Source: Halopseudomonas pelagia (lineage in GTDB: Bacteria > Pseudomonadota > Gammaproteobacteria > Pseudomonadales > Pseudomonadaceae). Taken from it: a stretch of DNA of 64,000 bases. The position numbers were made by a program, and so were the translations under genes. Shown in pieces: positions 14,047 to 21,385 of this stretch. The notes beneath the pieces were generated by a model. That model was not told the DNA's origin, did not search any database, and was given only the letters and a program-made list of their open reading frames with translations. Numbering within the stretch: the stretch's first letter is position 1; every line of letters starts with the position of its first letter. The stretch covers positions 4,030,001 through 4,094,000 of the forward strand of contig NZ_CP033116.1 of assembly GCF_009497895.1 (NCBI RefSeq). The letters are read 5' to 3'.

Positions 14047-14127
14047 TTAGCGGGTATGGCGTTCTGGGACCAGTGGGTACACCTCCCGAATGAATTCACC
14101 AGGATGCGACGGATTATGCATAGTCAT
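14047..14127 (-). pseudogene. higA: higA antitoxin fragment (N-terminus only)
   Basis: A 26-codon frame beginning MTMHNPSHPGEFIREVY, the conserved start of HigA-type XRE antitoxins (MxMHNPPHPGE). After residue ~17 the sequence no longer resembles HigA and a stop follows. The ATG overlaps the stop of the higB fragment (TAATG), the usual higB-higA arrangement. This is a decayed toxin-antitoxin module at the far end of the cassette array. Confidence 0.7.
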
Positions 14128-14197
14128 TAGCGATAATCCTCATAATCAAGAATGTAGGCGTTGGCGTCCTGAAATTCGAACGTCATACGCCAATCCC
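14128..14197 (-). pseudogene. higB: higB toxin fragment (C-terminus only)
   Basis: The last ~22 codons read RDWRMTFEFQDANAYILDYE then DYR, which matches the C-terminal strand of HigB/RelE-family toxins (NWRLTFxF...DYxDYH). Nothing upstream of RDW resembles HigB; instead the sequence runs into the 3' end of a LysE gene and a partial attC R box (GCCTAAC). The toxin is certainly non-functional. Confidence 0.65.
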
Positions 14198-14205
14198 GCC
14201 CTTGG

Positions 14206-14835
14206 TTAGGCACTAGCACGTTTGCTGCTTGCGAGCAGACCAGCAGCAACAAGAAACACGCCGCCGGTGATTCGATTGAAGAGCTTGGCGCGACGTGGTT
14301 GTTGGAGCCAGATTTTGGCTTTGGATGCCGAAAGCGCGTAGATGGTGAGCCACAACAACTCGAAAAATATGAATGTGACGCCGAGCAATAGAAACTGCGG
14401 GAGGTGAGGTTCACTCGGGATGATGAATTGCGGAAAGAGCGCGCCAAAAAAGAGCAGTGCCTTTGGATTGCTCGCTCCAACTAGGAAACCTTGAGTGAAG
14501 AGGCGTCTTCCTGTTGATGACTCAACGGCGCCAGAGACTGCAATTTCACTGGTAGAAGAAATGATGGAAGAAATACCGAGGTATGCGAGATAGGCCGCGC
14601 CCAACCACTTGAGTGCAGTGAACAGAATGTCCGACGCCGCAAGGGCTGCGCCCAAACCAAGTGCCGAGAGCGCCATGATGCAAACGATGGCGGTTGTACT
14701 GCCAAGCGAAGCAATTAGCGCTTTGCGCGCGCCGAGATTGACTGAAGTGGAAACGCACATCAGCACGCTCGGCCCGGGAGTGACCGTGAGAACCAGGACC
14801 GCCGCGACATAGAGCAGCCAAGTGGAGAAGGTCAT
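14206..14835 (-). CDS. LysE/RhtB-family amino-acid exporter (cassette 6)
   Basis: 209 residues with about six membrane helices. The N-terminal motif VTPGPSVLMCVSTSVNLGARK and the middle motif FLVGASNPKALLFFGALFPQFI define the LysE/RhtB export family, which pumps amino acids or homoserine-lactone-like compounds out of the cell. A good ribosome site (AAGGAAAT) precedes the ATG. Its stop codon TAG is followed after one base by GCCTAAC, an attC R box, but the rest of the attC is replaced by higB remnant. A second LysE-type gene of the same array lies at 17.8-18.4 kb; the two proteins are related but clearly diverged. Confidence 0.9.
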   Translation of the reverse strand: MTFSTWLLYVAAVLVLTVTPGPSVLMCVSTSVNLGARKALIASLGSTTAIVCIMALSALGLGAALAASDILFTALKWLGAAYLAYLGISSIISSTSEIAVSGAVESSTGRRLFTQGFLVGASNPKALLFFGALFPQFIIPSEPHLPQFLLLGVTFIFFELLWLTIYALSASKAKIWLQQPRRAKLFNRITGGVFLVAAGLLASSKRASA

Positions 14836-14867
14836 AGAAGATATTTCCTTGGTGGCAGTTGAATTGC

Positions 14868-14946
14868 GCCTTCACGTAAAGCGCACCGATGCCTTTGGCG
14901 TAGCGAAACGGAGACAAGGGCATCGGTGTGACGCGCTTGGTTAGCT
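14868..14946 (-). other. Degenerate attC site (after ParE cassette)
   Basis: Minus-strand R box AGCTAAC, which includes the stop codon of parE, is followed by CAAGCGC and a 10-bp perfect inner inverted repeat (CACCGATGCC / GGCATCGGTG). The distal R' box is poor (GTGAAGGC instead of GTTRRRY). The 79-bp span is close to the 76 bp of the two best attC sites. Confidence 0.55.
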
Positions 14947-15243
14947 GCCTCCCAGCATGAACGCACGAAGCTGCCGCTCCTCTCGCATGACGTAGAGGAC
15001 AAAAACCCGCTTTTCATCCTCACGATAAAAAATGCGGCAAGGTGGAACCACTATCTCTCTGTATACGGAATTAGGGAGTTCTGGAGGAATCCGTCCGGAC
15101 TGGGGAAAATCTTCCAAGCGCTCGATCTTTTCGAAAACGTCCTGAACCAGATGACTTGCGGCGGCAGGATTATCCAGAGCAATGTACTCGGCGATGGCAT
15201 CCAGCTCTTGAAGTGCGGGCTCCGTCCAGATTACTTCAGCCAT
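14941..15243 (-). CDS. parE: RelE/ParE-family toxin (cassette 5)
   Basis: 100 residues, starting MAEVIWTEPALQELDAIAEY and containing RIPPELPNSVYREIVVPPC then RIFYRED, the core of ParE/RelE toxins. ParE proteins poison gyrase; RelE relatives cut mRNA at the ribosome. The sequence pattern favours ParE. It overlaps the antitoxin gene by 13 bp, the usual coupled arrangement. The stop TAA forms part of the attC R box, so the gene fills its cassette to the end. Confidence 0.88.
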   Translation of the reverse strand: MAEVIWTEPALQELDAIAEYIALDNPAAASHLVQDVFEKIERLEDFPQSGRIPPELPNSVYREIVVPPCRIFYREDEKRVFVLYVMREERQLRAFMLGGS

Positions 15244-15488
15244 TTACTCATTTTCTCCCTGGCCTCACTCCGGCTGTACGTTCTTCCCTCAAGTACAGCA
15301 CGCTCTCCCCGTGAGAGCCCCTCAAGCAGCTCAAGTCGACGCTGCATGAACTCGTAATCCTGCACATCAACAAGGTATGCGGATGGCTGACCATGTTCCG
15401 TAATCAGTACCGGCTCCTTGGACAAGTGCAGGTCTGCCAGAATCTTTGTGGCCTGGCGCTTGAGGTTCGTAACAAGCTCAACTTTCAT
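15231..15488 (-). CDS. Phd/YefM-family antitoxin (cassette 5)
   Basis: 85 residues from ATG 15488, chosen over an upstream in-frame start because GGGTGA precedes it and MKVELVTNLKRQATKILADL is the family's N-terminus. The DNA-binding N-terminal half is followed by a toxin-binding tail (LLEGLSRGERAVLEGRTYSR). Translated first and overlapping the toxin. An internal promoter with an imperfect palindrome over the -10 lies immediately upstream, consistent with autorepression. Toxin-antitoxin cassettes with their own promoters are typical of large chromosomal integrons. Confidence 0.88.
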   Translation of the reverse strand: MKVELVTNLKRQATKILADLHLSKEPVLITEHGQPSAYLVDVQDYEFMQRRLELLEGLSRGERAVLEGRTYSRSEAREKMSKWLK

Positions 15489-15512
15489 GGGTTCACCCGG
15501 AATCAAACTATT

Positions 15513-15547
15513 AGTGCCACTATAGTAGCACTCCGCGAGAGTAGCAA
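15513..15547 (-). promoter_or_regulatory. Toxin-antitoxin cassette promoter and operator
   Basis: Minus strand: -35 TTGCTA (15547-15542), 17-bp spacer, -10 TATAGT (15524-15519). The palindrome AGTGCcACTATAGTaGCACT (15532-15513) covers the -10, a likely antitoxin binding site. Confidence 0.65.
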
Positions 15548-15551
15548 TCTC

Positions 15552-15627
15552 AGCTAACATTTGGTTAAGGGGCGGGCTTTAGCCCGTGCGAGTGAGCGAA
15601 GCGAACGGCTTGAGCCATTTGTTAGGT
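15552..15627 (-). other. attC site (after HSDR_N-like cassette)
   Basis: 76 bp. Minus strand: R'' ACCTAAC, L'' GGCTCAAG with an extra base, inner hairpin CGGGCTAAAGCCCG, L' CTTAACC, R' GTTAGCT. The arm pairing is imperfect in the way attC sites are. It is closely similar to the site at 16516-16591 (roughly 60 of 72 aligned bases by eye), as expected for one species-specific attC family. Confidence 0.82.
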
Positions 15628-15669
15628 GGCGAACTGGACATATTGATCGGCAGCTTTATGAAGAGTGCA

Positions 15670-16492
15670 TTAGCTAGTTTCTTCAGTAGTAGAGAATTTT
15701 GCTAGGTAGTAGTTTGTCAGCGCCTCTTTGGACGCTCGCGCATAAAGCTCGCCAAAACATGAAGAAAGCAACTCTCTTTCGCATGAAAATATCGGTGAGA
15801 GCTGATCAATTCTTCCTCGTGAAATGTGAAACAGTTGAACTGTTTTACTATCGGTTATCAAGAAAAAATCGCACTGAGTCCAAAGGCAATAGCTTTTCGC
15901 TTGGTTGTGTGCATTTAGAAGTTCTTGTTGCTTAAGTAGACGCCCTTCTTTTTTTGCCTCAACTGTTAATAATGGTTGATTTTTTAATGAGTCGTCACTG
16001 TTGTTGAACAAAGCGAAGTCTATGACAAGAGTTGTATTTCGTGAGCCATGAGCTGCAGGAACGGGCATGCCATCGTACCTATCGTCCTCCGCATAACCAA
16101 GGCGCGTTAGCAATGGGATGATGAACTTTGTTTCAACTTCTTTTTTCTGTTCGGAGCTTTAGTTCTGAAACCCTATCAAACCAGCCATCAGCATTCCATG
16201 TTGATAACGCAGATGGCGTTGGTTGCTCTGGAAGTGTATTACAGGACAAATATATCCAGTCCTGGTGAGATATTTCCCAGCGCTCTCCGAACCTAACAAT
16301 TGGAGGATTGATTGATAGTCCTTGACAAGTTAGCAATTCTGTAATTTTTGCAGTGTTAGTGTCTGATCTTTTTTCAATGCTAAACTTAGTCAGCAAGGTG
16401 CGCAATTTTAGACGTTTTGATCCTGTAGATGACTTCCCTACATCGCATCTAATCGATCTGGCAATATTTTCATCTGATTGTGTTAAAGACAT
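15670..16492 (-). pseudogene. Restriction-like protein with HSDR_N-type domain, frameshifted (cassette 4)
   Basis: Two abutting frames encode one protein of about 273 residues. The first (from ATG 16492, MSLTQSDENIARSIRCDVGK) ends SELKLRTEKRS; the second continues KEVETKFIIPLLTRLGYAED and then VIDFALF and LLTVEAKKEG, the nuclease-core pattern (D...ExK) of type I restriction R-subunit N-terminal domains. The break lies in a run of six A at about 16141-16148, and the 823-nt length fits one extra base. Stand-alone HSDR_N proteins are common in cassettes and defence loci; activity is not established. It may be a true mutation, a sequencing artefact, or expressed by slippage at the A run. AT-rich composition. 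Confidence 0.7.
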
Positions 16493-16515
16493 ACGCAGTC
16501 TCAATTAGAGGTGAC

Positions 16516-16591
16516 ATTTAACATTTGGTTAAGAGGCGGGCTTTAGCCCGTCCCAGTGAGCGGAGCGAGCGATTTGAACCATTTGTTACAT
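16516..16591 (-). other. attC site (after LysE cassette 3)
   Basis: 76 bp. Minus strand: R'' ATGTAAC, L'' GGTTCAAA with an extra base, inner hairpin CGGGCTAAAGCCCG, L' CTTAACC, R' GTTAAAT, which fits GTTRRRY exactly. The TAA of R'' is the original stop codon of the interrupted lysE gene. Confidence 0.85.
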
Positions 16592-16674
16592 CTTGTTTTC
16601 AGATAATCCCAGGGGTTCTACCCCGTTACTGCGGACACTTTTGAAAAAAGGCACAATGTGCCAAAGGAGTGTTC

Positions 16675-16962
16675 ATGTCCAAACGCAGAAGATACAGCCC
16701 CGAATTCAAGCGCGAAGCCATCGCGCTATCTCGCCAGCCAGGTGCCAATTGCCGCCAGGTGGCCTTAGAGATTGGAATTAATCCCAACCTGTTGTCCCGG
16801 TGGGCGCGTGAAGCCGAAGAATTGCCAAGCAAGGCCTTCAAGGGCTCGGGAACGCCGCGTGACGAAGAGCTTGCCCACTTGAAGCGGGAACTGGCACGGG
16901 TAAAAAAGGAACGTGATTTTTTGCGCGAAGCGGCAGTGTTCTTTGCAAAGGAGTCGTCCTGA
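16675..16962 (+). CDS. IS3-family transposase OrfA
   Basis: 95 residues from ATG 16675, which has AAAGGAG upstream. The helix-turn-helix region [20 protein letters not shown] and the C-terminal leucine-zipper-like [20 protein letters not shown] are typical of IS3 OrfA proteins, which bind the IS ends. It ends KESS just before the OrfB frame opens in the -1 phase. Confidence 0.92.
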
Positions 16963-17807
16963 GGTATCAGACGATTCAACACTGTCGCAGTCTTTTCCCG
17001 ATACGTCTTATGTGTCGTTGCCTGAAGGTATCGGCCAGCGGCTATTACGCTTGGGCATCTCGTCCGCAGTCCAGCAGGGCAAGAGCGAACGACCGTCTGC
17101 TGTCGCGTATCAGAGAGATTCACGATGACAGTGGCGGAATGCTTGGGTCGCCCCGAATGCACGAAGACTTGGCTGCCGAAGGCGTTGCAGCCAGCCTGAA
17201 TCGTGTTGCAAGGCTAATGGCCAAGCACGGCATTCAGGGGTGGCCCCGTAGGAAGCGAGGACGCCTCGGACGCGCATCAAATCGGCCACAAGGTATTCAA
17301 AATCACCTTGAACGGGATTTCTCCGCACTGGAACCTGATACCAAATGGGTCACTGACATTACGGAGATCTCCACCCAGGAAGGAAAACTATTTCTCTGCG
17401 TGGTTCTGGATTTATTCAGCAAGCTGATCGTTGGCTGGTCTATGCACCACCGGCAGGATCGGCAGATGGTAATCAGAGCTGTTCAAATGGCTGTCTGGCA
17501 ACGTCAGGGCGAAACCCCAGTAATACTGCATTCAGACCGAGGCAGTCAGTTTACCAGCGGTGATTACCAGCGATATCTAGGCAGTAACGATTTGGTCAGC
17601 AGCATGAGCGCGGTTGGCCATTGCGGAGACAACGCAGCCTGTGAGGGGTTCTTCGGCATGCTAAAACGAGAGCGAGTACACCATCGGCGTTACCGTACGC
17701 AGGACGAGGCAAGAGCTGATCTGTTTGAATACATCGAGCGGTTCCATAACCCCAGGATGCGACGTAGAGTTGCTGTTCAGGATCGGAAGCTCACAGCCGT
17801 TTTATAA
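16959..17807 (+). CDS. IS3-family transposase OrfB (DDE integrase core)
   Basis: The frame is open in the -1 phase relative to OrfA, with [20 protein letters not shown] as the natural N-terminus; expression may use frameshifting or a non-ATG start after AAAGGAG. DDE catalytic residues are in [20 protein letters not shown] and [14 protein letters not shown]. About 282 residues, intact to the stop at 17807, so the element looks potentially active. Confidence 0.9.
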
Positions 17808-18457
17808 CCGTCCGTGGAAACGGGGTAGAACCCCAGCCCAATTCCAAACCCTATAAAAGTTACGCCGCTAAACTTATTGAATAATTTGAATTTTATTGGA
17901 CTTTCAAACCAATGTCTAGATTTACTGCCAATGATTGCATAGGACATAAATATCACAAACTGCACCGCTGCCGAAGTTAAGCCGAGTGTAATAACCTGCG
18001 GAGTAAGTGCCTGCTGAGTATCAATGAACTGAGGGATCAGGGCACTAACATAAACTAGAGCTTTGGGGTTCGACGAAGTTACAAGAAAAGCCTGTCTAAA
18101 TAAAGTTAAATTATTTGAGCTGTGGTCTTTTGGCGAAACCTCCTTCTGCTTTAAGGTAATAGGAGACCTCCATATCTTCACACCTAAATAGATCAAATAT
18201 AAGGCGCCTAATATTTTTAGAGTGCTGAATAACTCACTTGATGCTGTGAGTGCAGCCCCTAAACCAAGTGAGCTTAGTATACTTAATAATTGGAAAGCAG
18301 TGACATTTCCACACACAGCTATAGAGGAGCGTTTAATTCCATGCTGGACTCCATTATTGATAGATAACATCACAGAGGGGCCAGGAGATAACAGAAATAC
18401 ACTCGTGATTGCCATAAATAAAAGATATTTATCGAGACTCATTTTTGTCTCCTAAAA

Positions 18458-18590
18458 ATATAACGCCGTGTTCAACGGCAGTTTGTAAGTTGTGGCTTTG
18501 TGGATTACTTTTGCGCAGCAAAACCACAAGGCTGCGACTTACAAACTGTCCAGCGCACGAAGTGCGCGATGTTGGAACACTTTGTTATGT
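18458..18590 (-). other. Long attC site (after cassette 2)
   Basis: 133 bp. Minus strand: R'' ACATAAC containing the stop codon of the cassette gene, L'' GTGTTCCAAC with an extra base, L' GTTGAACAC, R' GTTATAT. Long internal pairing (CAGTTTGTAAGT / ACTTACAAACTG) extends the stem, as in Vibrio-type repeats. Confidence 0.8.
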
Positions 18591-19007
18591 GTGTTTTCGC
18601 CTGTAGGGAAGAATTGCACAAGATTCCGACCAGACAAATGCATTTATATTTTCATATTCATGAGTTGTTGGCTCGCCGTACTGCGAACGTACTTTTTGTT
18701 CTTCGAAACTACCACCCCACTTCATGAGAATTGGGCCAACCTCTAAAAGTTCTCTGGACTTACCATCAGAACACAATATTGAAACCGTGCCAATAGAAGA
18801 AAGCTGTAGATACGTTGCTACTTCTTTTGTAATAAACCAACCCATTGTCATGTCCTCTAAATTAATAGAGAGCAGCTTATCTATTGCCATTTCTGAATGT
18901 ACGATACGAATGGGTTCAATAGGCGATTCATTTGGATTTGAAAAAAACCAATAATTCGTATTAAACGAATCAGCCGACTTTTGTTCTGGAAAATTAGTTA
19001 CACTCAT
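18585..19007 (-). CDS. Hypothetical cassette protein (cassette 2)
   Basis: 140 residues starting MSVTNFPEQKSADSFNTNYW. No signal peptide or clear membrane helix. I do not recognise the family. The ATG has AGGAA upstream, and the stop TAA is embedded in the following attC, so the gene occupies the whole cassette. Lower GC than flanking chromosomal genes. Confidence 0.75.
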   Translation of the reverse strand: MSVTNFPEQKSADSFNTNYWFFSNPNESPIEPIRIVHSEMAIDKLLSINLEDMTMGWFITKEVATYLQLSSIGTVSILCSDGKSRELLEVGPILMKWGGSFEEQKVRSQYGEPTTHEYENINAFVWSESCAILPYRRKHT

Positions 19008-19021
19008 ATGCGATTCCTAAA

Positions 19022-19111
19022 ACATAACGCCCCGCTAAACGGCGAGCGTTAGCGAGTCCGGTGGAGGCTGCGCTTTTCGCAGCCGGAACGTATTTGAGCG
19101 GTTTGTTATGC
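19022..19111 (-). other. attC site (after cassette 1)
   Basis: 90 bp. Minus strand: R'' GGCATAAC containing the original stop of the interrupted gene, L'' CCGCTCAAA, L' TTTAGCGG, R' GTTATGT; inner stem GGCTGCG / CGCAGCC. Confidence 0.8.
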
Positions 19112-19245
19112 CTTTTTCTCATGCACTGCTTTTATAGCTCTGTAACCATCAATTAATCGGCCACCCGGCGAGGATTTAGTAATAGAGCGAAATAGACCGT
19201 CAAGCTCGGCTACACCAGATTCTACGCGGATCATTTCATACGCTT

Positions 19246-20334
19246 GGCGGTCTCAGGGACCAAGTGCAACACATGAGATAGAGTGTTGCGATGAAAACCT
19301 ACACGCATTTAACCACTGATGAACGCGTCGTTCTGATGCTTATGCGAGACCAGGGATTGAGCCTGCGCTCAATCAGTCGCCACCTGGGCCGACACGCAAG
19401 CACGCTTAGCCGAGAGCTGAGACGCAACAGTCCTACCCGCCACTACGATGTCATCCAGGCTTGCGCTTTGGCGCGTGATAGGCGCACGAAGCAAAGAAGG
19501 CCTCCGCGTCTGCTGCCGAGTAGCGAGCTTTTCCAAGTCGTATGCGAAATGCTAAAACGGGGCTGGTCTCCTCAACAAATCGCGTCCAGACTGAAGCTTC
19601 AATGGCCTGACAGACCCGAGTTTCATGTGAGTCACGAGAGTATTTATCTGGCGATCTATGCCTACCCACGCGGCGAGTTGAAGCGGCAACTGATCAGCTA
19701 TCTGCGCCAAGGTCACGGTAAGCGTCGCCGCCGCACGGTAAGCCCTGGACGGCGTGAGCGCTATCCGGCAGACCTGAGCATTCATTTGCGGCCGCCAGAG
19801 GTAGAGGACCGCCTTATTCCTGGCCACTGGGAGAGCGATCTGATCATGGGTGCCAGCAATAGGTCAGCAGTGGCTACCATGGTCGAGCGCACCAGCCGCT
19901 TTGTCGTTCTAGCCAAGCTGGATGAGCCGACAGCTGAGTGCGCCGCTCAGGCGATAACCCGAGAGATGTCGCGTATGGCGCCCTCTCTGCTAAAAACCAT
20001 GACGCACGATCAAGGCAGTGAAATGGCCCGTCACCAAGATATAACGGCGAGCACTGGGCTGAAGATCTACTTCGCCGACCCTCATAGCCCTTGGCAGCGC
20101 GGCAGCAACGAAAATACCAATGGTTTGCTGCGCCAATACTTGCCAAAGGGTACTGATCTATCGGTGGTCAGCCAAGAGCGCCTTGATGAGATTGCCGAGC
20201 TGCTGAATACTCGTCCACGTCAGACGTTAGGCTGGAGATTCCCGGTAGAAGTGCTTATTGAACATCTTCAGCTCTCGGTGAGCAACAACCTTGAGACCAT
20301 TAACTAAGTGTTGCACTTCGATCCTGAGACCGCC
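19246..20334 (+). mobile_element. IS30-family insertion sequence, 1089 bp
   Basis: Terminal inverted repeats begin GGCGGTCTCAGG and extend with few mismatches through AAGTGCAACAC. A CTT duplication flanks it (19243-19245 and 20335-20337). One intact transposase gene fills it. Confidence 0.9.
19291..20307 (+). CDS. IS30-family transposase
   Basis: 338 residues. An N-terminal helix-turn-helix of the IS30 type (LSLRSISRHLGRHASTLSRE) is followed by a DDE core: HWESDLIMGA, KTMTHDQGSEMARH, and the C-terminal block PHSPWQRGSNENTNGLLRQY. Full length and uninterrupted, so potentially active. It is encoded on the strand opposite to the cassette genes. Confidence 0.94.
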   Translation: MKTYTHLTTDERVVLMLMRDQGLSLRSISRHLGRHASTLSRELRRNSPTRHYDVIQACALARDRRTKQRRPPRLLPSSELFQVVCEMLKRGWSPQQIASRLKLQWPDRPEFHVSHESIYLAIYAYPRGELKRQLISYLRQGHGKRRRRTVSPGRRERYPADLSIHLRPPEVEDRLIPGHWESDLIMGASNRSAVATMVERTSRFVVLAKLDEPTAECAAQAITREMSRMAPSLLKTMTHDQGSEMARHQDITASTGLKIYFADPHSPWQRGSNENTNGLLRQYLPKGTDLSVVSQERLDEIAELLNTRPRQTLGWRFPVEVLIEHLQLSVSNNLETIN

Positions 20335-20722
20335 CTTCTTTTACAGCTTGCCGAAAGTCTTTTAGCATCTCTTGATTGGTTGACTCTTCAAAGATATCGC
20401 TTGTTCCGACAAAGGCCAAGCAGCAATGAACAGTGACTTCTTCGTCGAGATAAAATTGATGATTATCCGTATATTCTGCAACTTTTAACCCTGCGTGAAA
20501 TGCCACTGCTTTCTTTTCGTCGATAGATAAATCTTTGTTTTCAATAAGCTCGCTTATTATGCTTGAAGCGAGCTGTATCTCGGACATCAAGCCTTCGTAG
20601 ATATTTAATCTTTTTTCAAAGACCTGAGCAGAATACTTTTCGATCCTAGAATTGCGTCTGTAGTATTCATTCAAGAGAACACCTATTAACAGACCCGCAA
20701 GACCGATTAGCGCACCTTCCAT

Positions 20723-21385
20723 AAATTACTCTCAATTCCCAATTTTAGGCATAACATTTATATATGAGTCACACCAACCAATATGTCGGTGATCGTTTTG
20801 TCTTTCCCAACCCAGCCCCAACATCTTCTACAACACCCGCAAACCGGCCCTCTCCGCCTATCGCCCAACTTTTACATCGCCGACAAAACGATCATCAAGC
20901 CTCATATCACCATTTTCCATCTTTCTGCTAACCAACTGTTTTTCAATCTAAAAATCCATGATCTCTGGCTAGCGCCCATATATCGGTCACTGCGATGATT
21001 TTTAACGTAAACCGGGCAGTTCTACGGCCCATTCAACCGCCAAAGGTTTTTCAGGCACGCTACCGCCCTATCCTCTTTGCGGACAAGTCGGGGGATTGCT
21101 TAGCTGTATTGGGAAAGGAATGCAGGCTGTCCGTGCCTGAGAGGCGGGATAAGATGTGCATTCCGTTGCTTGGCTCGAGAGTAGTCCAGGACGTCAGGGA
21201 TTGTCCAAGATCATTTACTGCAATTATCCCGCTGCGGCGCGCAAGCTAGGCTGCACAGCGGCTCGCCCGTGGTTTGCGCCGGCTTATACTCGGCCATTCA
21301 CCTTCACCCTGCCCCTTGCCGAATTGAAACAAGTGTTTAACACTGGCAGTCCTTTTTTCACCGCCCATATAGACAGGAGCTTTTC
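20723..21385. other. Intergenic region at the proximal end of the cassette array
   Basis: About 660 bp without a convincing gene. It holds a cassette core GTTATGC (minus strand, 20755-20749), then a 13-bp perfect inverted repeat (TGATCGTTTTGTC at 20790-20802 and its complement at 20882-20894), and the leader of the SDR gene. This is where an integrase gene would be expected; none of the short open frames resembles IntI. Confidence 0.5.
21326..21339. promoter_or_regulatory. PsrA-like operator upstream of SDR gene
   Basis: GAAAC-AAGT-GTTTA fits the G/CAAAC-N2to4-GTTTG/C motif reported for the Pseudomonas fatty-acid regulator PsrA at nine of ten arm positions. It lies 46 bp before the start of a 3-hydroxyacyl-CoA dehydrogenase-type gene. 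Confidence 0.4.

Follow-up and report, generated by a model that had tools for sequence, protein, structure and literature searches.

An integron cassette array of Halopseudomonas pelagia that has its own attI and no integrase gene in cis

A cluster of attC sites that has no integron integrase is called a CALIN (PMC9024848). In Shewanella, the prophage M16-3 is described as carrying a complete integron as well as a CALIN, both of which have an attI (PMC9892861), and in Xanthomonas the CALINs situated away from ilvD are found at conserved loci and can reportedly be mobilized in trans (PMC12444791). The array that we describe here lies in a window of 64,000 nucleotides (the whole stretch of H. 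pelagia DNA that was analysed), and like a CALIN as defined in PMC9024848 it has two or more attC sites on one strand and no intI nearby. We could confirm from its sequence that it is an integron gene-cassette array with six cassettes, that it lacks intI and that it possesses an insertion site, attI, of its own (Table 1).

Table 1. Features of the cassette array and its platform (positions in the window; R1, attC covariance model; R2, attI model)
Feature	Position	Strand	Evidence or remark
Platform, leader plus attI, at the array head	20755..21209	-	G|TT crossover at 20755
GGGCGGTAGCGTGCCTG, motif at the outer end of Halopseudomonas integron platforms	21052..21068	-	
attI core, made of two conserved blocks with fixed spacing	20750..20919	-	R2, 126.1 bits, E 2.6e-36 (match by construction, the window copy being part of R2)
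Cassette 1, ORF of unknown function, interrupted by IS30	19028..20754	-	no Pfam family
IS30-family insertion	19246..20334	+	transposase 19291-20307, 27-bp inverted repeats
attC of cassette 1	19022..19111	-	R1, 46.8 bits
Cassette 2, 140-aa protein of unknown function	18464..19027	-	no Pfam, NCBIfam or PADLOC match
attC of cassette 2, 133 bp	18458..18590	-	R1, 31.0 bits
Cassette 3, LysE-family exporter, interrupted near 3' end by IS3	16522..18463	-	PF01810, 2.7e-36
IS3-family insertion	16612..17834	+	
attC of cassette 3	16516..16591	-	R1, 38.0 bits
Cassette 4, HSDR_N_2-like gene, frameshifted	15558..16521	-	PF13588, 1.7e-6; frames 16504-16133 and 16113-15670
attC of cassette 4	15552..15627	-	R1, 37.0 bits
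Cassette 5, Phd antitoxin and ParE toxin	14875..15557	-	PF02604, PF05016
attC of cassette 5, non-canonical, R' box without GTT	14869..14946	-	R1, 7.4 bits only
Cassette 6, second LysE-family exporter, then remnant; truncated array end	14077..14874	-	PF01810, 1.6e-33

The covariance model R1 was built with 12 pairs from 34 of 47 available attC sites, which came from other genomes, with none from the window. It gave four matches of 31.0-46.8 bits (E 1.6e-10 to 1.9e-6 over a 7.5-kb stretch with filters off), which all fall on the minus strand, separate genes that point the same way and have R and L boxes that pair; these are the four good sites, near 15.55, 16.52, 18.46 and 19.02 kb, that a preliminary description of this DNA had proposed. 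A separate scan of our own design scored the same sites 24.4-30.7, while in the rest of the window two matches reach 24 and none reaches 25; in block-shuffled window sequence the background is 0.13 per 10 kb at a score of 24 and 0.08 at a score of 25. A whole-genome search at E<=10 found at least nine attC matches, four at the window array and five elsewhere. The search is non-exhaustive, with 150 of 2619 first-look candidates scored and a weak site of the purL-linked array missed.

The fifth, degenerate site, that of cassette 5, scores low with R1 but has other support, as the sequence of the shared Phd-ParE cassette stops there in three species. Two other species (G010 and G029) have this cassette in their arrays at about 91% identity, and the 3' end of the shared sequence matches on all three platforms; it is the one cassette of the six for which behaviour as a mobile unit, bounded by attC, is seen. 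By eye, the stop codon TAA lies within R'' in cassettes 1, 2, 3, 5 and 6, that is in five and not four as counted before, and the stop codon of cassette 4 stands about 50 bases ahead of R''. The remnant after the LysE gene of cassette 6 we take, by eye, to be HigB/HigA-like, and the IS3 of cassette 3 has a 100% identical copy in the purL-linked array.

The true head of the array is the attI crossover, from which the leader extends to about 21209, and the far end of the array lies near 14077, where homology with H. laoshanensis starts again. The same interval in H. laoshanensis, the one relative compared, holds another attI without intI and with different cassettes, and between the shared flanks other genes are found than in the window. 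The platform of this relative belongs to another leader subgroup, and turnover at the window's own platform is therefore not demonstrated by the comparison. That there is no integron, and that the hairpins arose by chance between ordinary genes, is hardly credible and was ruled out, being contradicted by the E-values, the agreement in strand, the shared cassette with its matched ends and the replacement in the relative.

Judged by homology, it is an attI that heads the array: attI and leader are homologous to the attI adjoining intact integrases in congeners, and the attI block is common to the intI-linked attI of G011 and G029. The platform is also 81-83% identical over 439-456 bp to the purL-adjacent platforms, likewise without intI, of G000, G011 and G023. 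Model R2 consists of 13 sequences, the window copy included, which are 13 of the 14 type-A copies that it finds, so the type-A count is partly by construction. As the array keeps its attI platform, we regard it as an integron without intI and not as a bare attC cluster. The preliminary description, which left it open whether the array was an orphan or had lost its integrase, was right that this is an integron cassette array without an integrase gene and overlooked the attI and leader at the head. An ordinary CALIN, which arises when cassettes insert at a secondary (attG-like) site of the chromosome, would also have no intI nearby, and CALINs distant from intI are known (PMC12444791); a cluster of three attC sites at 1.466 Mb in G000, absent among the matches listed for either attI model, may qualify as one. 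The full-length attI and leader make this origin very improbable for the window array, however, and for it we rejected the explanation.

Across nine intI-less type-A leaders 12 columns, GGCGGTAGCGTG, are invariant. In many complete integrons the outer motif directly follows the 3' end of intI, by which we take it to be the outer end of the platform; that the shared leader of 453 bp is a MITE-like mobile repeat was rejected for that reason. The motif occurs in several genomes in a different context too (L118, L120, L121, L125, L129, L135) and alone is thus no marker of an integron. It might be that the leader carries a promoter which expresses the first cassette; promoter-like boxes can be seen by eye only, and the sigma-70 consensus has no minus-strand match in the window leader. 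No Rfam family matched up to E 1 between 20600 and 21380, and five other loci gave sub-threshold matches only, besides 4.5S RNA. In the consensus fold of the leader the covariation term is only -0.76, and 9 of 38 pairs have changed on both sides, which speaks weakly for a structured RNA.

An integrase search found none over the cut-off in this genome, and between 13500 and 22000 in the window there is no intI-like match below E 0.3 (best tblastn E 0.36). On this ground we rejected the idea that an intI remnant is hidden close to the window attI, and the earlier claim that no integrase gene lies on either flank holds in cis and, at the cut-off, for the whole genome. The sole relic found is a fragment of 83 codons at a distance of 1.18 Mb from the array, between rimO and rho and adjoining another attI. 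This fragment is 95% identical over 83 aa to the intact IntI of G011.

By its sequence, the window locus is a member of a dispersed family of platforms in Halopseudomonas that have attI and no intI. At least 75 cases were resolved, spread over 32 of 37 genomes, a lower bound like our other counts since the attI searches scored a subset of the first-look candidates. At least 100 matches came from the search for type-B attI: 24 adjoin intI or a fragment (judged among the integrase matches listed, and counting one in G027 at 1.4 kb from intI), five weak ones (G010:C66, G013:C22, G001:3203139, G012:2486636 and G030:C43) were left out, and 71 were examined. Without four that have less than 400 bp upstream and two with intI fragments, 65 remain, to which we added nine of type A and the rimO-rho platform of G023, recognized by eye without a model match; an inner partial attI copy in the G011 array is not included. 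All 162 attC matches in the 71 loci share the strand of attI and lie downstream of it, and 18 of the loci have no attC within the examined stretch, seven of these with less than 1.5 kb downstream. Over about 1.5 kb, as far as attI, the purL-linked platforms of G000, G011 and G023 are colinear, yet they have different cassettes, and there is no intI-like match in these loci.

These could all be plain degraded integrons, each once complete, which exchanged cassettes earlier and lost intI separately, without any activity in trans. Given where the outer motif stands in complete integrons, the platforms do resemble platforms minus intI, and fragments of intI are present in G000, G018, G024, G013 and others. 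Yet an intI-like remnant was seen at only 2 of the 71 type-B attI away from intI (4 of the 71 having less than 400 bp upstream) and none was found at the type-A loci without intI, and many flank-sharing platforms align for about 700 bp through the intI-less leader, in a group of up to nine genomes, as if the intI-less state had been inherited. We consider separate degradation unlikely.

Alignments show, genus-wide, that the sequence adjoining attI in flank-sharing platforms without intI changes just past the crossover. No similarity is left past attI in 80 of 80 pairs with common flanks beyond -500, in 14 groups, where the pairs of L214 (only 14 bases past the crossover) and L223 (about 130) are little informative; a broader count, 96 of 96, includes about ten pairs that share the outer leader only and not the position, e.g. 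the window against G023 and against G011. Over 83 within-group pairs identity is about 0.85 before the crossover and at chance level just past it (0.87 at the G, 0.81 at +3, 0.28 at +4), with the crossover set by hand at TGTT, which inflates the values from -1 to +2 and not the drop after +3, and with L208, L223, L232 and L236 off by at least one base or without GTT. In G029, segments of 348-957 bp are common to complete and intI-less arrays. New arrays could also come with transfer of flanking DNA, though this would not leave a break at the crossover, and intI could have been lost separately at each platform after its cassettes had changed.

What we hold to be the likely explanation is that the window locus is a platform of leader, attI and six cassettes, without intI and one of a dispersed family, whose cassettes were exchanged by an integrase in trans. 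This integrase would be encoded at one complete integron, excise cassettes anywhere and insert them at any cognate attI. The enzyme that served this genome is probably the one left as a relic between rimO and rho; after its loss the arrays would have been frozen and then hit by IS elements, frameshift and truncation, and the window platform would be one of the trans-served ones, now stranded and decaying. In 13 of the 32 platform-bearing genomes, G000 included, there is no integrase over the cut-off, so a supply in trans there would be past or unseen; some integrases over the cut-off are split or have stops, and G011 has a type-B platform yet no type-B integrase among the matches listed.

We also lean, with less assurance, towards a distributed integron in Halopseudomonas and parts of other genera of Pseudomonadales: one integrase would serve several intI-less attI platforms scattered at fixed chromosomal sites, and many CALINs would be active satellites instead of dead integrons. 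Should many CALINs have an attI of their own and be served in trans, the integron would be a genome-wide network. It would offer several first-cassette positions, at each of which a different gene could be expressed, and removal of one gene should halt cassette exchange at several loci per genome.

In print we found an attI-bearing CALIN published for one prophage, and no genus-wide set of intI-less attI platforms. The sedentary chromosomal integron, in the form of the complete integrons of congeners, is like the window array in attC type, attI families and outer motif, whereas the window array has no intI in cis. A CALIN in the sense of PMC9024848 differs in that the window array has its own attI and leader. 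The Xanthomonas CALINs share with our platforms the conserved chromosomal positions, but the latter have attI, which PMC12444791, in what it presents of the former, does not describe for them. A close case is Shewanella M16-3, with an attI-bearing CALIN and a complete integron in one genome (PMC9892861); that is one prophage, and in Halopseudomonas the chromosomal platforms number in the dozens, with many of them placed at shared sites and with turnover of their cassettes.

The array in the window, which the preliminary description had read as a six-cassette cluster of attC sites without an integron integrase (CALIN), is headed by an attI that was missed there. Its counterparts, with the 3' end ..TATAAATGTTA, lie upstream of intact integrase genes in two Halopseudomonas genomes, G011 and G029, as well as of the window genome's own integrase relic. 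This relic has 83 codons, lies between rimO and rho, and is 95% identical to the integrase of G011, where the intact gene adjoins rimO. The rimO-rho locus is a fossil integron, with no attC among the listed matches between attI and rho. Apart from the relic, nothing in the genome exceeds the integron-integrase cut-off, and the earlier claim that the array has no integrase stands.

The contents that had been proposed (LysE twice, toxin-antitoxin, restriction-like, two unknowns) are matched by the cassettes in the table, and both flanks are ordinary chromosome: one carries genes for an SDR and a decarboxylase, the other MgtE and a MORN/C13-peptidase gene. An attC model (R1) trained on 34 sites, all from other genomes, recovered the four good attC sites described before, every one on the minus strand. 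The fifth, degenerate site was below its reach (7.4 bits), but the stretch of the Phd-ParE cassette shared by three species ends there; this cassette recurs, about 91% identical, in arrays of G010 and G029. This non-canonical attC is kept together with its cassette in three species and could perhaps still be used by the integrase. Across the 4.55-Mb single-contig genome, of which the window is 4,030,001-4,094,000, R1 gave at least nine matches at E<=10, four of them in the window array and, among those listed, three at 1.466 Mb, one beside purL (1.220 Mb) and a weak one past rho (2.872 Mb). Of 2619 first-look candidates 150 were scored, and a weak second site in the purL array, which a separate locus search found, was overlooked. 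The three sites at 1.466 Mb form a small attC cluster, where no attI is among the matches listed by either attI model.

Features of the window array and of other loci carrying attI or attC sites (G000, window genome; L, fetched loci)
Feature	Position	Strand	Remarks
Leader region	window 21052-21209		invariant GGCGGTAGCGTG motif; possible hairpin, GGCA..GGAC..GCC with ..UGCC
attI	window, array begins at 20755	minus	heads array
Cassette 1			ORF of unknown function; head of array; interrupted by IS30
Cassette 2			ORF, 140 aa, unknown function
Cassette 3			LysE-family exporter; interrupted by IS3
Cassette 4			HSDR_N_2-like gene; carries frameshift
Cassette 5			Phd-ParE
Cassette 6			another LysE-family exporter; array truncated after it
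Non-canonical attC	window 14869-14946		R' box ACGTRA replaces GTTR
Fossil integron	G000:C1:2869968-2870454 (L002)		intI fragment and attI
attC cluster	G000:C1:1466020-1467095 (L023; 1.466 Mb)		three sites
intI-less attI, G029	L058 959-1055		
First insert, G028	L028 near 18200		

A comparison with related strains had been suggested, and H. laoshanensis (G023, identical to strain Y22 over 14,901 bases) holds a different insert between the same flanks, at 90-95% identity. It has an intI-less attI with a leader of a different subgroup and at least two attC; the common position by itself is no proof that the two platforms (leader plus attI) share descent. Downstream of purL the window genome has a second platform of the window kind, colinear in G011 and G023 over about 1.5 kb at 86-91%, while G031 has the flank and conserved blocks in common. 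No intI-like match was found at these purL loci, their attC arrays are on the correct strand, and the first cassettes differ between genomes. In G032 the identical spot is occupied by a complete integron, one of a different type.

The motif and hairpin region of the intI-less leaders may represent either an RNA leader or the platform end; covariation support for the hairpin is weak. The same 17-base motif was also seen elsewhere in several congeners (L118, L120, L121, L125, L129, L135), where another conserved sequence, ..GACTGTAAATCCTG or nearly so, comes before it and the next 1.5 kb downstream gives no match to intI or type-A attI; there it is perhaps a small RNA.

Platforms without intI are widespread in the 37 genomes of the genus surveyed (the window genome and 36 others). 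The type-A attI model (R2) gave at least 14 matches in six genomes, 13 of the 14 being themselves in the model. The type-B model (R3), built from 12 attI adjoining intI or its fragments, gave at least 100 in 34 genomes; removal of 24 beside intI and five weak ones left 71 loci, all fetched, 67 with at least 400 bp upstream. An intI-like remnant was present in two of the 71, and 65 loci in 29 genomes resolved as intI-free. Together with nine type-A platforms and the one in G023 this makes at least 75 intI-less platforms in 32 of the 37 genomes, all survey counts being lower bounds, and at least 23 genomes have two or more. Nineteen of the 32 have an integrase over the cut-off, not always intact, and 13 do not. 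One intI-less attI of G029 lies directly downstream of the 4.5S (small SRP) RNA gene, and in G028 the first insert, directly after attI, looks like another tyrosine recombinase gene.

All 162 attC matches (E<=0.1) around the 71 type-B loci are on the attI strand and downstream of attI, with at least one attC in 53 loci and at least two in 41. Since the attC and attI models come from different sites, their agreement is mutual support. Of the 68 loci whose upstream sequence is long enough, 27 have the outer motif (at most 3 mismatches, within 120 bp), against none of 60 control windows.

Eighty pairs of loci share flanks (at least 100 bp aligned beyond -500, counted from the attI crossover); they fall into 14 groups, the largest with nine genomes. 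Downstream similarity was found in none of the 80 (up to 700 bp searched, E<=1e-5; for two loci the downstream sequence is short); a more permissive count gives 96 of 96, about ten of these pairs having only the outer leader in common. The search was positive in 23 other pairs, so the method works. Per-position ungapped identity was taken over 83 within-group pairs, one of which (window and H. laoshanensis) was picked by position. Immediately ahead of the crossover it is 0.86-0.88; it is still 0.81 at +3, falls to 0.28 at +4 and stays at 0.17-0.43 as far as +39. Further upstream it ranges from 0.42 to 0.84, since the comparison allowed no gaps.

A break at the crossover, with flank and often an intI-less leader in common, is what is predicted if cassettes were inserted at these attI by an integrase acting in trans, and is not predicted by transfer of flanks through homologous recombination. 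The main rival, a possible one, is that intI was lost separately at each platform after the cassettes had changed. Insertion in trans also agrees with segments in G029, cassettes or otherwise, that are 90-98% identical between complete and intI-less arrays; other common segments in G029, G032 and G000 are certain or probable IS copies.

R3 found attI-like sites across the order in at least 23 of 390 genomes and at least eight of 143 genera, up to six per genome. Of ten out-of-genus loci examined, six show no intI-like match anywhere in the locus, and attC sites are present at five of the six. Titles and abstract openings from a mainly open-access search, preprints excluded, told of no dispersed attI platforms. 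We drew on parts of PMC9024848, PMC12444791, PMC9892861, PMC3607928 and PMC12901181, and the portion used of one of these describes a comparable arrangement, an attI-bearing CALIN in one Shewanella prophage (PMC9892861).
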